Source: Balamuthia mandrillaris
Lineage: Eukaryota; Discosea; Longamoebia; Balamuthiidae
Direction: 5' to 3'
DNA: 64,000 nucleotides
NCBI GenBank assembly: GCA_031835245.1
Contig: JAVKOQ010000026.1
Location: 272,501 to 336,500 of the forward strand
Shown: in pieces, positions 48,126 to 53,125 of the stretch
How the letters are laid out: each line of letters starts with the position of its first letter
Position numbering within the stretch: position 1 is the first letter of the stretch
Program-made: the position numbers and the translations under genes
Notes under the pieces: generated by a model
Databases searched by the model: none
The model's input: only the letters and a program-made list of their open reading frames with translations
Told to the model about the DNA's origin: nothing

Positions 48126-50481
48126 ATGGGTCTTTGCAAGTGCAGAACAATCACAGACCTCTATTGCTTTGTGCACAAGAAAGCTGTGTGTGAGCATTGC
48201 GTTTTTCCTGAGCACAAAGTGGTACGTTGAAAGGGGAGACCAAAGAAAGCTCCACCCACCACGCCTACACCTTTCTTCTTCAGCTGAATGAGGCTTGCTT
48301 TCCATCACAGTGCGTCGTTGGTACCTATGTAGAATGGCTTCAAGATCCAGACTATGAACCTCCCACCTGTGCAGTATGTAAGGAAGAGCTCACAGAAGAC
48401 AACGTGCTTCGACTTCTCTGTCTTGGTTAGGGCCTTCCTCTACCTCGTTTTTGTCGCAACTCAGTAATCCCTTGCTTCCCCTACGTAGATATGTTTCACC
48501 CGGAATGCATTGATGTTCATGCTGCTTCCTTTCCCCCCAACACTGCACAAGCTGGCTTCACCTGTCCATCCTGCCTTGTACGTCTCTCTTTCTCTTCCTC
48601 TTTCCCTCTCTAACCAGTTCAGCCCCAAACAGAAAGGCATTATACCCTCCAGCAGTGCTGATTTATCTTCCCCTCTTGCCCAACAATTGCTGCGCCACCT
48701 CAACAACGCTCCTTGGTACAAGGGCAACAACTTGAGTTCCTTGGTAGTTGTCCTTTTTTTTTGTATTCCCTTCATCTCCTCTGTTCACTCCTCTCTCTCG
48801 CTCTCTTCTCTCTCCCTCCCCTGCTCTGCTCTCTGCTCTGCTCTCCACTCTCCTCTTCGTGTTCACCAACAACAAATTGCAGCCTTTACATGATGCTGGG
48901 GAGAGTGCCGTTGCTGAACATGACTCACTTCATGCGCCAGAAAGCAGCAACAGACAAGCAGCCATTCCCCTTCCTCCTGTTCGCCAGGACACTGCATTAG
49001 AAGTAACTACCAGTATGCCAGTGGCTAACACAGGTAAGTGACATGTCGTTTTTCTGTTTTGTTTCCCAAACTACTACCATACAAGCCCCATGGGGTTCCC
49101 TTGAAGTTTTCACGGCCCATGACACCAAATACTACTTGGTTCTCGGGGCTGTGTGAAAACTATTTAAGCAACCGCTCTGTTCCTTCCAGTCGTATCCCAC
49201 AGTCCCTTCATGTCACAAACCACTCCTACTAGCACTGCAACTACTGTCACTACCGCTACCAACACAGTTACCCCTCAAGCCTAGCCGATGTCACTGTAGA
49301 CCTTGTGCTTCGGGTAGGCTTCTCGCATACGCTCAACCTCAGGTTTGAGGTGCTCTCGTTGTCCATGACTGGAGACTCTACAGTGACATCGGCTCGGGCA
49401 TCAACTGGAAGCGCAAGGACTTTGTCACCCTTCTGGAACAGGTCCTTGCTGGACGTGTCGAGGAGGTTGTGGTTGCCCACAGGGACCGCCTCTGCCGGAT
49501 CGCCTTCGAGCTCGTCGAACACATCTTCCGTAAGTGTGGAACCCGTCTCCTGGTGCACCGTCCGGACGACGTCAGTGGCGACGACGATGACCCAGCAGAG
49601 CCAAGCTACGTCCTCGCCGACAAAAAGACCGCCAGAATGCTTTATTCCTGGGGCCATTACCGATTCCGCCAGTGGTTGCTGCATAAGGCGAGGGAGTGGG
49701 GCACCAAGGTCTACGTTCGATCGGAGGCCTGGACCAGCAAGACCTGCACCTGGTGCCTCCGTGTGACCCACGAGCAGAAGAAACCCAACCAGAGAGAGAG
49801 GATCTTCGAGTGCGGGCATAGGGACTGTGGGATACGACTGGATCGAGACATAAATGGAGCGCGCAACATTCTTCTACGGAACCTTGTTGCGTAGCGTTGC
49901 CCGATGGAGCCATATGGGGACGCGCTGATGGGAAAGTGGATGGGCGCTTCTGTAGCCCTCTAGCCCACCCCATCCCCGCATTCTCGCAAGAACTTTCATT
50001 TGTGGGTTTACTCACTTGTGTGACTTTTAATCCATCAGGGGTGGCCTCTCGGAAAGCTCAAAGGAGTAACTACGGGTTTCTGCGTGGGGCAGGTTCTCAG
50101 GTTGAGGATGACGATGATGATGACAAATACCGAAAGCATAGTATCATGCAACTTTTTCGTGGAATCTCGTACGTTGTTGCCCTTTCCTCCTTTTAAACAT
50201 GAAGAACAAGAACGGGCAGAAGGACAGAAAAGAAGAACTAGAAGAACCGATTGGCAAGAGCAAGAGAGGCAAATGAAAGGCGACAAGCTGCTAACCATGG
50301 AGATACTTTCACACCATCACCTAAAAGGCCAAAACAGGAACTATTGCCACTCTCCAGCAAACGGTCTCGTGCATTTAAGTGCACTACTCAGAAAGTACTA
50401 ATTGTGGTGGCGTTGCTTTCAACCCTCGCCACTGTTCTCTTTCTAAGCATGAAACTTAGAGTGGAACCCCTCAACGAATGA
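48126..50481 (+). CDS. ZFPL1: ZFPL1, Golgi membrane RING/B-box protein
   Basis: Integral cis-Golgi protein. Exon 1 (from 48126) gives MGLCKCRTITDLYCFVHKKA and CEHCVFPEHKV, the B-box-like zinc finger. Exon 2 gives CVVGTYVEWLQDPDYEPPTC and the first RING cysteines; exon 3 gives DMFHPECIDVHAASFPPNTA and CPSC. Next FSPKQKGI, LAQQLLRHLNNAPW and a low-complexity linker. After the long intron come VASRKAQRSNYGF and DDDDKYRKHSIMQLFRGIS, matching the ZFPL1 'DDDKYRRR' region. The last exon holds the C-terminal membrane anchor (QKVLIVVALLSTLATVLFLS, MKLRVEPLNE, stop 50481). The intron 49034-50038 (about 1 kb, phase 1) contains the IS607-type relic. A Thr-rich open stretch at 49190-49283 could be an extra exon. 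The acceptor of the last exon is uncertain. Confidence 0.88.
49283..49394. repeat. 18-bp perfect inverted repeat around the inverted fragment
   Basis: AGCCGATGTCACTGTAGA at 49283-49300 and its exact complement at 49377-49394, with a 76-bp spacer. Both arms derive from the recombinase codons for VYSDIG. The left arm marks the left edge of the relic. Confidence 0.95.
49284..49382 (-). pseudogene. Inverted N-terminal catalytic fragment of the IS607 serine recombinase
   Basis: Read on the minus strand, this 99-bp piece encodes RVSSHGQREHLKPEVERM then REAYPKHKVYSDIG and a stop. RVSS is the catalytic-serine motif of the small serine recombinases, and the stretch is exactly the part that should precede SGINWKRK on the plus strand. 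It is therefore the same gene's 5' part, turned around. Confidence 0.8.
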
Positions 50482-50696: not shown

Positions 50697-53125
50697 TTAA
50701 TATGCAGGCTTATGATGCTCCAGAGGAGAACTGACCTTTAATAGAAGATAAGAAGCTGTTCCTGTGGAGGACGAAGCAGGACAGGCCGGTAGAACGCTAA
50801 AGCTCACGCCGCCTAAAAACGCGGCCGTGTGATCACAACACTGTCAGTCACTTAAAACTGAAAGAAAGAAGAGGGCAAGATGAAATACCTGGCAAAGAGG
50901 CTGGGTATAGTATACGCAAGAAAATGCTATAGAATGGGAAGTGATGGAGGCAATGCAGTGCCGTGTAGAACGAGAGGTAAATCGCTAGAACTGCTAAGCG
51001 TGCACCCGTAAAGTAGAGGTAGTAGGCAAATGTGGTAGGCAACAAAAAGAACATAGTGGTGAATAGCAGGGTGCCAAGAATGAGCTGATCAATGTCATAA
51101 GCATAAGAGTCGATGCGCTGCTTTAAAACATTGCGTTTTTTGCCTGCAATGGTCACATTTAGTGGAGCAAAGGAGAGGAGAAAGGGAAAACGAGAAAAAC
51201 TTGCCCCTGAATAGTTTCCATAAAGAAGAGAGGATGTGAAATTGGAAAGCATAGCAGCGCACAGATACTGATAGATTCAAAATAACACAGGTGAGAAATC
51301 CCACGCAATGAATGTTTTAGCAGAGAGTGTGGTCAAGCGACGGGACAATGAGGCTTTGAAACGCCCACCCATCGCCCACCACATCCCTGGCTCCATCGGG
51401 CAACGCTAAACTCCATATGCATTGGCCATGGAGAAATACGAAATTTCACGTACCTGTATAACAATAGAATATGTGGATATGCAGCAATGATAAGATATCT
51501 AACACGAAACTGATCATCATAGATAAGCCGAACAAGCCGCTTAAGGCCACACCTTTCAGCAGCATAGGTATTAGTGGTACTGCAGCCCGCATAACCACTG
51601 TGAAGCAACTGTGAAAAAGAGGTACAGGATTAAAAAAAAAGTGATGGGATACAAACCTTGCCAAGAGCTCAGGAGATAGAGGAAGATGGAACCAAAGAAA
51701 TGAGCAAGTGTATGGTTAAGTTTAATGCCTGCAGGCTTGCCCCCCATCAGCCATTCCACCCCAGCTCTCAGCCGTGAATCACTGAGATGTGACATTTGGT
51801 AAATGAAGTGACAGTCTACTGCTCCTCCCCATTCTTCAGAACTGGCGGATAAAATCTGGCTGTGATTCCAGAGCAACCAAGCCACCAAACAACCCAAAAA
51901 AAGGTCAACAATCAATGACCACACACGGTGATAGCAGCGTTGTTCCAACACTCTCCATGTAGGTGTAGAAGTATTACAGGCGCACAATTGCTTCCATTCC
52001 GTTTGCCAGCTCTGTAGAAAGCAGCGCCTCCGTGCCACCTCCTGGCCTGTCGAGCAACAATATTCATGCGTCAGACAGCAGCAGCAAACGGGTATACGGC
52101 CAGACAAAAGGGTGAGAACGTGGTAACATACCGATGGCGGTGAGGCTTAGTGCGGTGAGGGAAGGGCCGTTGGTGGGATTAGAGAACAAGGAAGGAAACG
52201 GAATGTTGAGTAAGTGCAGTAAAGGCACTGTTAAGGGCTGTAAGAGCCATCCTGCTGTCAACAACAACGAAAGGAAGATGGTCATGCAGCTCTTTCCTCT
52301 TCCGACGGATCTTTCAATGGAGGGATGGCGGGATCCCCTGCTGTTGCGTTGCAAAAATTCACGACAAGGCCAGAGGCTGCTATTAAGGAGGCGGAGAGAC
52401 TCGTCCAGTTGCAAGGAGGGAATTGAGGTTTCTTCTGGTGGGCCAACCACCTGTGGTGTAATCTTGTGGTGCCCAACCACCTGTCGCTGTTGGTGCTGGT
52501 TGGGATGAGCAAATGCTTCTCCTTCTCCAACGTTGTAGCAGGAGGAGGAGAGGGTAAGCGGTTGGGTGGTGTAGAGGGAGTGGTGAAGAGCCGTGGGGTC
52601 GTAGAACAGCACTCGTTGCACCTCCTCTGTTGAATCAACAGCACTTTCAGAAGCTATGTTATACATTGTCAAGCGTCTAAAACGCGGCAGAGAACAGCGT
52701 TGCTTGTCGAGTGGTTCATTCGCCAGAATGTGCAGCCAAGGCTGCTGCCTGTTGGTTGTTGTTGTTGTTGTTGTTGTTGTTGGAGGTGTCCTTTCTGCCT
52801 CCAGTTGAAGTTGGCCCAAAAGCTGAGCACGCTTGGCCAAAGGTTGTTGTTGTAACGTTAAAAGCGCCCTCATTTCAGGTTCAGCACACTGCAAACAAAG
52901 AAGAAGAAGAAGAAGAAGAACAGCAGCAACAGCAGCAGCGAAAAAAAAACATGAGCACTACTGGGAAGAACAAGCTGCACTAGCTTTGTACGAAAAGAGG
53001 AGGACCTGCGAATAAGGGACCACGGCTATCACACATACAAAGCGCGGTGGTACCATCCAGCCAACTAACCAACCTCCTGCTGTAATGTTGTCTGTGGGCA
53101 CATCGACTGGCCAGAAGACCTCCAT
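50697..53125 (-). CDS. PIGQ: PIGQ/GPI1, GPI-GlcNAc transferase subunit
   Basis: Membrane subunit of the ER complex that starts GPI-anchor synthesis (GlcNAc onto phosphatidylinositol). The start MEVFWPVDVPTDNITAGGWL (53125) with GWMVPPRFVCVIAVVPYS parallels the human N-terminus (LLVGRWVP..). A variable, low-complexity part with poly-Thr follows (52758-52783). The conserved membrane domain has VWSLIVDLFLGCLVAWLLW, GGKPAGIKLNHTLAHFFGSI, FVLDILSLLHIHIFYCYTG, GKKRNVLKQRIDSYAYDIDQ and LILGTLLFTTMFFLLPTTF with HHFPFYSIFLRILYPASLPG. The last exon reads GGVSFSVLPACPASSSTG and LLLKVSSPLEHHKPAY, ending at 50697; it parallels the PIGQ tail and corrects a shorter unspliced end. Six or seven exons, several hydrophobic helices. 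Confidence 0.9.

Follow-up and report, generated by a model that had tools for sequence, protein, structure and literature searches.

A ZFPL1 intron of Balamuthia mandrillaris that is probably an internally deleted member of an IS607/Fanzor2 introner family

The stretch of Balamuthia mandrillaris DNA analysed here (the window; 64,000 nucleotides) contains the gene for zinc finger protein-like 1 (ZFPL1), and one intron of this gene consists, from its first base to its last, of a transposon-like element. We interpret this element as a non-autonomous, internally deleted copy of an introner, the autonomous members of the family being IS607-type elements with genes for TnpA (a serine recombinase) and a Fanzor2-type RNA-guided nuclease, and we put the probability of this reading at roughly 80%. 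The ends of the element are GT and AG, and its excision on paper gives a gapless empty site. Filled sites in this genome read CAG[GT...ATCAG]exon, most empty sites hold the triplet once, and copies that carry tnpA and tnpB are placed within genes just as the others are. That the elements are spliced, and that TnpA is active, we infer from sequence.

The limits of the ZFPL1 element were fixed with a deposited protein, P0241 ('Zinc finger protein-like 1 [Balamuthia mandrillaris]'), which is continuous over 49034-50038 (..SMPVANT-GVASRK..). From the protein by itself the junction is uncertain by 2 nt, and the sole canonical cut is GT 49034 / AG 50038. Position 49034 is therefore the splice donor (CAG/GTAAGTG, the slash marking the edge of the element) and 50038 the last base of the acceptor (ATCAG/). 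By the same mapping the five other ZFPL1 introns measure about 55-159 nt, in agreement with the initial annotation, which had remarked on an intron of about 1 kb among short neighbours; none of these five, all in the window, has CAG before its donor. Three ZFPL1 exon pieces scanned singly gave no Pfam match, and the gene was named through the protein search.

Table 1. Features of the ZFPL1 element, its flanking exons and a second family member in the window
Feature	Positions	Strand	Remarks
ZFPL1 exon 5	48883..49033	+	ends in target ..AACACAG
Whole element, equal to the whole ZFPL1 intron	49034..50038	+	1005 bp; similarity to genomic copies begins at 49034 and stops at 50038
Left end GTAAGTG.., also 5' splice site	49034..49060	+	preceded by exonic CAG
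23-nt arm, reverse complement of 49820-49842	49185..49207	+	perfect; lies before tnpA
TnpA N-terminus remnant (MSQTTPTSTATT...)	49210..49281	+	start shared with tnpA of other copies
Inverted TnpA segment	49280..49384	-	positions 548-444 of the full-length C73 copy
TnpA serine-recombinase segment	49377..49620	+	C73 positions 528-762; Pfam Resolvase; 88% to C73 copy
TnpB/Fanzor2 C terminus with zinc finger	49618..49894	+	Pfam TNB; alignment with relatives
Second 23-nt arm	49820..49842	+	inside TnpB end, near RuvC-III coding sequence
Right end ACTCACTTGTGTGACTTTTAATCCATCAG, also 3' splice site	50010..50038	+	genome-wide end matches
ZFPL1 exon 6	50039..50169	+	begins GGGTGG; 3' end within 1 nt
186-bp family member, GPI1/PIG-Q intron	51268..51453	-	joined exons match Pfam Gpi1 over junction, E 1.2e-17

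The internal structure of the element was read against a well-kept 2371-bp copy on contig C73. Window positions 49034-49223 correspond to 1-183 of that copy and 49618-50038 to 1952-2371; about 1.19 kb of tnpA/tnpB has been lost between the TnpA piece and the TnpB end, and the two matches overlap by 3 nt. A single open frame (49349-49894) fuses the serine-recombinase piece to the TnpB end, and Pfam places both parts above its curated cut-offs (Resolvase at residues 3-66, E 2e-7; Cas12f1-like TNB at residues 99-170, E 1e-16). Codon positions locate the alternative RuvC-II Glu at 49724-49726 (ExxxxxxCxxC) and the RuvC-III Asp at 49847-49849, and alignment indicates that RuvC-I is deleted in this copy. 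On all of these points, namely the fusion of an IS607-type TnpA piece to a TnpB/Fanzor C terminus, the loss of internal sequence and the survival of two of the three RuvC motifs, the initial annotation was right. It had also looked for the right end within 49895-50030, which was close, the actual end being 50038. Its reader had missed that the ends are splice sites and that the genome holds 98 right ends, as well as the inverted TnpA segment (49280-49384) and the TnpA start at 49210, where the TnpA-type sequence MSQTT is still present. The two 23-nt complementary arms listed in Table 1 have counterparts at positions 145-168 and 2154-2176 of the full-length C73 copy, and may perhaps serve in the pairing of intron ends or in antisense control.

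The element is not the lone relic that it was first taken for. Genome-wide scans allowing up to 3 mismatches found 98 right ends (41 + 57) and 32 left ends; since the backwards control gave 0 in both scans, a chance origin of these matches is unlikely. The left-end pattern is stricter than the right-end pattern, which may explain part of the excess of about 3:1, and duplicate contigs among the matches mean that independent copies are fewer than 98 and 32. Contigs C39 and C43, for example, are identical over the compared 5 kb, with the same coordinates, and are probably an assembly duplicate. In most copies the aligned left ends read (C)AG/GTAAGTGAAATTTCGTTTTTC and the right ends TTTGTGAGTTTACTCACTTGTGTGAYTTTTAATCCATCAG/, with unrelated flanks. 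Near-identical introns thus lie at unrelated gene positions, with similarity stopping at the intron edges, as is expected of introners. The search for full-length relatives in the same genome that the initial annotation had proposed was successful: near-full-length copies with open tnpA/tnpB frames are present, and tnpB lies beside tnpA in the C73, C11, C598, C718 and C39 copies.

For detailed study we used 57 of the 98 right ends, all different from one another in sequence. Both ends were counted as intact in 29 of these 57 copies, and the 29 span 59-2371 bp. The left flank is CAG in all 29, position -4 is a purine in 28 and position +2 is A or T in 27. The complete copies were chosen by the likeness of their left ends to GTAAGTGAAATTTCG.. 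(GTAAGTG), so that the presence of GT in 29/29 is partly built in; CAG was part of the search string for three of them (L061, L012, L015) and absent from the string for the other 26. Copies with altered left junctions were left uncounted (C145, AAG/ATAAGT; C718, CTC/TCTCC; C770, TTTA/GTTAAAC), as were the C39/C43 copies, in which the right end is rearranged, and L060, which lies on a duplicate contig of L054. A near-full-length copy with an altered left end (L011, C718:7000-16590) is nested in the tnpB of another copy.

We then took 28 of the 29 complete-copy sites and compared their joined flanks with the same genome. Exon insertion with an empty orthologous or allelic counterpart, without a gap at the junction, was found for 19 of the 28 (6/12 + 13/16), and the genome therefore holds the same genes in a filled and an empty version, whether as alleles or as homologous copies. 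ZFPL1 is empty, with neither element nor intron, on contigs C556 and C128, with 0/140 mismatches in the flanks. The 19 include a 2371-bp copy in RICTOR and a 2347-bp copy in a phosphomannomutase gene. At one site (L059) the two sequences agree well to the right of a point about 20 bases left of the junction, and badly to the left of it. At 16 of the 19 empty sites the triplet is CAG; the other three have CAA, CCG and CGG, for which later change and a different target are indistinguishable. None of the 19 revealed a target duplication beyond the shared core, and the CAG common to both ends would look the same as a 3-bp duplication or as a recombination core. For nine of the 28 sites no empty version was found in the same genome (L048, L015, L032, L037, L073, L045, L054, L078 and the GPI1 copy at 51268-51453). 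The GPI1/PIG-Q copy is filled on all three contigs found with that site, and its insertion is for this reason probably older than that in ZFPL1.

The host genes were examined by removing the element and joining the flanks. An open sense frame of at least 20 codons then runs on both sides in 24/27 cases, compared with 68.5% of displaced junctions and 16/27 in antisense; for at least 40 codons the figures are 17/27, 32% and 5/27. Pfam was run on 26 joined frames (those of the 29 complete copies minus L066, L080 and the window copy), of which 15 gave a match at E 0.01 or better and 11 gave none at that threshold. In 10 of the 26 the match was above the curated cut-off and covered the junction, the domains being Prp18, GCP C-terminal, RICTOR_M, RasGEF_N_2 (RICTOR), Gpi1, PROPPIN, Thioredoxin_15, ECH_2, HGTP_anticodon2 and phosphomannomutase; ECH_2 (L074) covers it by only about 2 residues. 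In two further frames (L045, kinase; L073, TPT) the match spans the junction below the curated cut-off, and in three (L061, L062, L078) it lies beside the junction. The Prp18 frame aligns 140 residues on 140 model positions across an 88-bp copy (E 2e-61), and the phosphomannomutase frame 43 on 43 across the junction. A deposited protein, P0121 ('Pre-mRNA-splicing factor 18'), is 98% identical to the filled-site frame with the 88-bp copy removed, and is encoded on a 20747-bp contig, apparently C660, where the site is empty. RICTOR holds two insertions, of 443 bp and 2371 bp, and the larger of these, like the phosphomannomutase copy, carries both tnpA and tnpB.

Full-length TnpA matches Pfam Resolvase (E 5e-16), with a MerR-like region at E 3e-4, under the MerR cut-off. 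It aligns with the catalytic domains of IS607-type TnpA proteins in the PDB through its YxRVSS and DRLxR motifs, which we take to be the catalytic motifs of the recombinase. As judged from these matches, the protein appears to fit the IS607 layout of a MerR-like HTH followed by a serine-recombinase domain, of which the ZFPL1 copy retains only pieces. Full-length TnpB contains VALDPGVR (DPG at RuvC-I) and E-AWTSKT-C, in which the Glu stands six residues ahead of the zinc finger; DPG and the alternative Glu are given as two Fanzor hallmarks in the text of Yoon 2023 (PMC10711439). Neither varies among the query and eight chosen relatives, Naegleria, Lipomyces and Phormidium proteins included, that were taken from the 120 matches listed. 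The best PDB match of TnpB is the TnpB-like protein L79, presumably a mimivirus protein. TnpB is in a different frame from TnpA and has no clear ATG, and a deposited model (P0001) seems to join the two via a predicted intron. Comparison of the C73 and C598 tnpB genes gave a dN/dS of 0.11; other tnpB pairs ranged from 0.18 to 0.48, values based on a small number of changes or on the C770 frame, which is broken, and tnpA pairs from 0.35 to 0.55.

The initial annotation had proposed that the element came from bacteria or a giant virus, and our searches name no such donor. The 120 tnpB matches listed, of 651, include two Balamuthia proteins and, besides these, a fragment on a 1656-bp contig (P0003) that is 57% identical; identities are otherwise 27-43%, with named non-Balamuthia proteins among the listed matches at 32-43%. 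Viral contigs contributed 30 TnpB-relative loci at 27-41% identity. In the search for a guide-RNA structure, an alignment of 14 right ends yielded 26 pairs, only 1 of which has a two-sided pair-keeping change.

In published descriptions IS607 exchanges at an identical dinucleotide, GG, without target duplication and presumably through a circle intermediate, and a GG core is reported for IS607 and ISXfa1. No GG core was found here, and the corresponding core would be the AG in CAG. We propose that TnpA would recombine the joined element ends at this 2-bp core with an AG in the target, as IS607 does at GG, such that a joint of the form ..ATC-AG-GTAAGT.. meeting XXC-AG-YYY would give XXCAG[GTAAGT...ATC]AGYYY. 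The AG core would close the acceptor and the upstream exon alike, GTAAGT would act as donor, and splicing would restore XXCAGYYY. Because the AG core is shared and the element starts with GTAAGT, a sense insertion into an exon would be a ready-made spliceosomal intron; splicing would hide the insertion by restoring the target sequence. Fanzor, with a guide RNA derived from the right flank, would probably cut empty alleles, with CAG as its target motif, and so favour refilling or retention. The ZFPL1 copy has lost most of both genes and kept both ends, and since the ends are kept it could move in trans; the deposited model still treats it as an intron.

Some observations sit uneasily with this proposal. 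Many copies lack a left end, three left junctions are altered, and the proportion of open sense frames on both sides (24/27) exceeds what would seem to be expected of DNA insertion that is free to occur in either orientation, unless other copies soon disappear. With such a sense-frame bias, reverse splicing is conceivable. Spread through RNA is accordingly the main rival: the excised intron would reverse-splice into a transcript or into DNA and be copied by a host reverse transcriptase, with TnpA and TnpB as passengers. Such a route would suit complete insertions with precise GT and AG limits, most of them within open sense frames, the preponderance of right over left ends (98 versus 32, though the left pattern is stricter) and the existence of 5'-truncated copies with target duplications; it is also a reading already given for fungal introners in section 8 of PMC9860276. 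The target signature, however, extends past the splice site (purine at -4, A/T at +2), selection on tnpB appears to be purifying, and five related IS607-like loci with non-AG right ends have multiplied in this genome too. Moreover, YxRVSS and DRLxR motifs are present in the recombinase that the element encodes. We therefore regard spread through RNA as unlikely, while treating it as the alternative to be taken most seriously.

The truncated copies deserve separate consideration. In six of the 57 right-end copies the left part is missing and the copy lies between exact target duplications of 11-15 nt; the duplication begins at CAG in five (L034, L055, L077, L027, L021) and in GAG in L072; three 6-nt matches were treated as chance, and the counts were made without a shuffled control. 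IS607 exchange alone does not predict these copies. They fit either Fanzor cut-and-repair at CAG or the priming of reverse transcription, and the two are not separable here. In L034 and L072, both of which look coding by eye, the duplicated target begins with GT, and the exon would once more be restored if a donor from the duplication were used with the acceptor of the element. Introner donors taken from a target duplication are known (PMC9860276, Fig. 2B). Two other truncated copies, L028 on C23 and L040 on C28, are flanked by an inverted, not a direct, copy of the downstream flank.

A bolder extension of the IS607/Fanzor2 reading, which we offer tentatively and think rather doubtful, is that these elements are spliceosomal introns that home under RNA guidance. 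CAG would then act in recombination as the core, for Fanzor as the target motif and in splicing as the exon side of the junction, the downstream exon would supply the guide, and repair of the break would copy the intron into its own empty allele; the truncated, right-anchored copies in which CAG plus 8 to 12 nt is duplicated would mark places where such repair stopped half-way.

The remaining explanations fare much worse. According to the initial annotation, an IS607 element landed in an older ZFPL1 intron and then decayed, and an intron of 1 kb that holds decayed genes is what this would leave behind. The element, however, is the intron end to end, with no intron sequence outside it, and at this place both empty ZFPL1 copies lack an intron, as is likewise the case at 18 other sites; we consider a pre-existing intron very improbable. 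Least credible of all is bacterial contamination or an assembly chimera, named at the outset as grounds for rejection: phage records do hold relatives of the proteins, but the copies lie in conserved eukaryotic host genes on many contigs and are accompanied by empty counterparts and a deposited gene model.

The elements share features with several known systems. Introners as described by Gozashti 2022 (PMC9860276) are likewise many near-identical introns at new positions, usually leave mRNA length unchanged and have splice sites that are element-borne or recruited from the target; that paper derives them, however, from non-autonomous elements, whereas here the copies with recombinase and Fanzor2 are themselves introns. 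Most non-fungal introner families in that account have inverted repeats or target duplications, and its main text contains neither 'IS607' nor 'recombinase'. The IS607-type Fanzor2 elements of protists and giant viruses (Bao and Jurka 2013, PMC3627910; Yoon 2023, PMC10711439) resemble ours in combining TnpA with a TnpB that has DPG and the alternative Glu, and in lacking target duplication, but they have a GG core, while here the ends are splice sites and the core would be CAG/AG; the word 'intron' is absent from the main text of both papers. Group B IStrons, which unite IS607 with a group I intron (PMC4227781), also render an IS607 transposon within a gene harmless through splicing. They are bacterial and self-splice by a group I ribozyme, whereas the host spliceosome would do so here; complete copies of 59-73 bp with GT-AG ends leave little room for such a ribozyme. 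The shintrons of mirusviruses (PMC12768974) are spliceosomal introns with a nuclease gene for which homing has been proposed, as here, but their nucleases are of the HNH, GIY-YIG, VSR-like and PD-(D/E)XK types and they lie in viral genes; transposase, TnpB, Fanzor and IS607 go unmentioned in the main text of that paper.

An IS607 or Fanzor introner is absent from the main text of PMC9860276 (supplement aside), from PMC7789003 and from PMC12730881 in the portions available, and no description was found in the introner, IS607, Fanzor or Balamuthia literature, in which subscription journals were thinly covered; nor was any paper found that pairs fanzor with introner. Introner, IS607 and Fanzor2 are thus each known, and what we did not find described is their combination in a gene-bearing transposon with splice-site ends, of which a single genome holds filled and empty versions of the same sites.

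Introners are held to account for bursts of intron gain, but how precisely they work is called obscure in PMC9860276. In the Balamuthia family the mover and the intron would be one element, and because filled and empty versions stand side by side in one genome, intron gain could be tested directly. Ends that double as splice sites would let Fanzor2/IS607 elements live in genes unnoticed, as a spliceosomal counterpart of bacterial IStrons, and insertions of this kind would explain the origin of some new introns; the element also suggests that ordinary introns might home under RNA guidance.

Further TnpB-bearing sequences occur in this genome. A second IS607-like group (L022-L026, on C622, C774, C57, C27 and C71) has TnpA- and TnpB-like frames, and was considered as a set of introners and rejected, the right ends being ..TTTAATGTAGGCGA, not ..AG. 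Another TnpB group, found on C12, C48, C101 and other contigs, is about 48% identical at the C terminus and comprises dozens of matches, with many open frames of about 580-600 aa.
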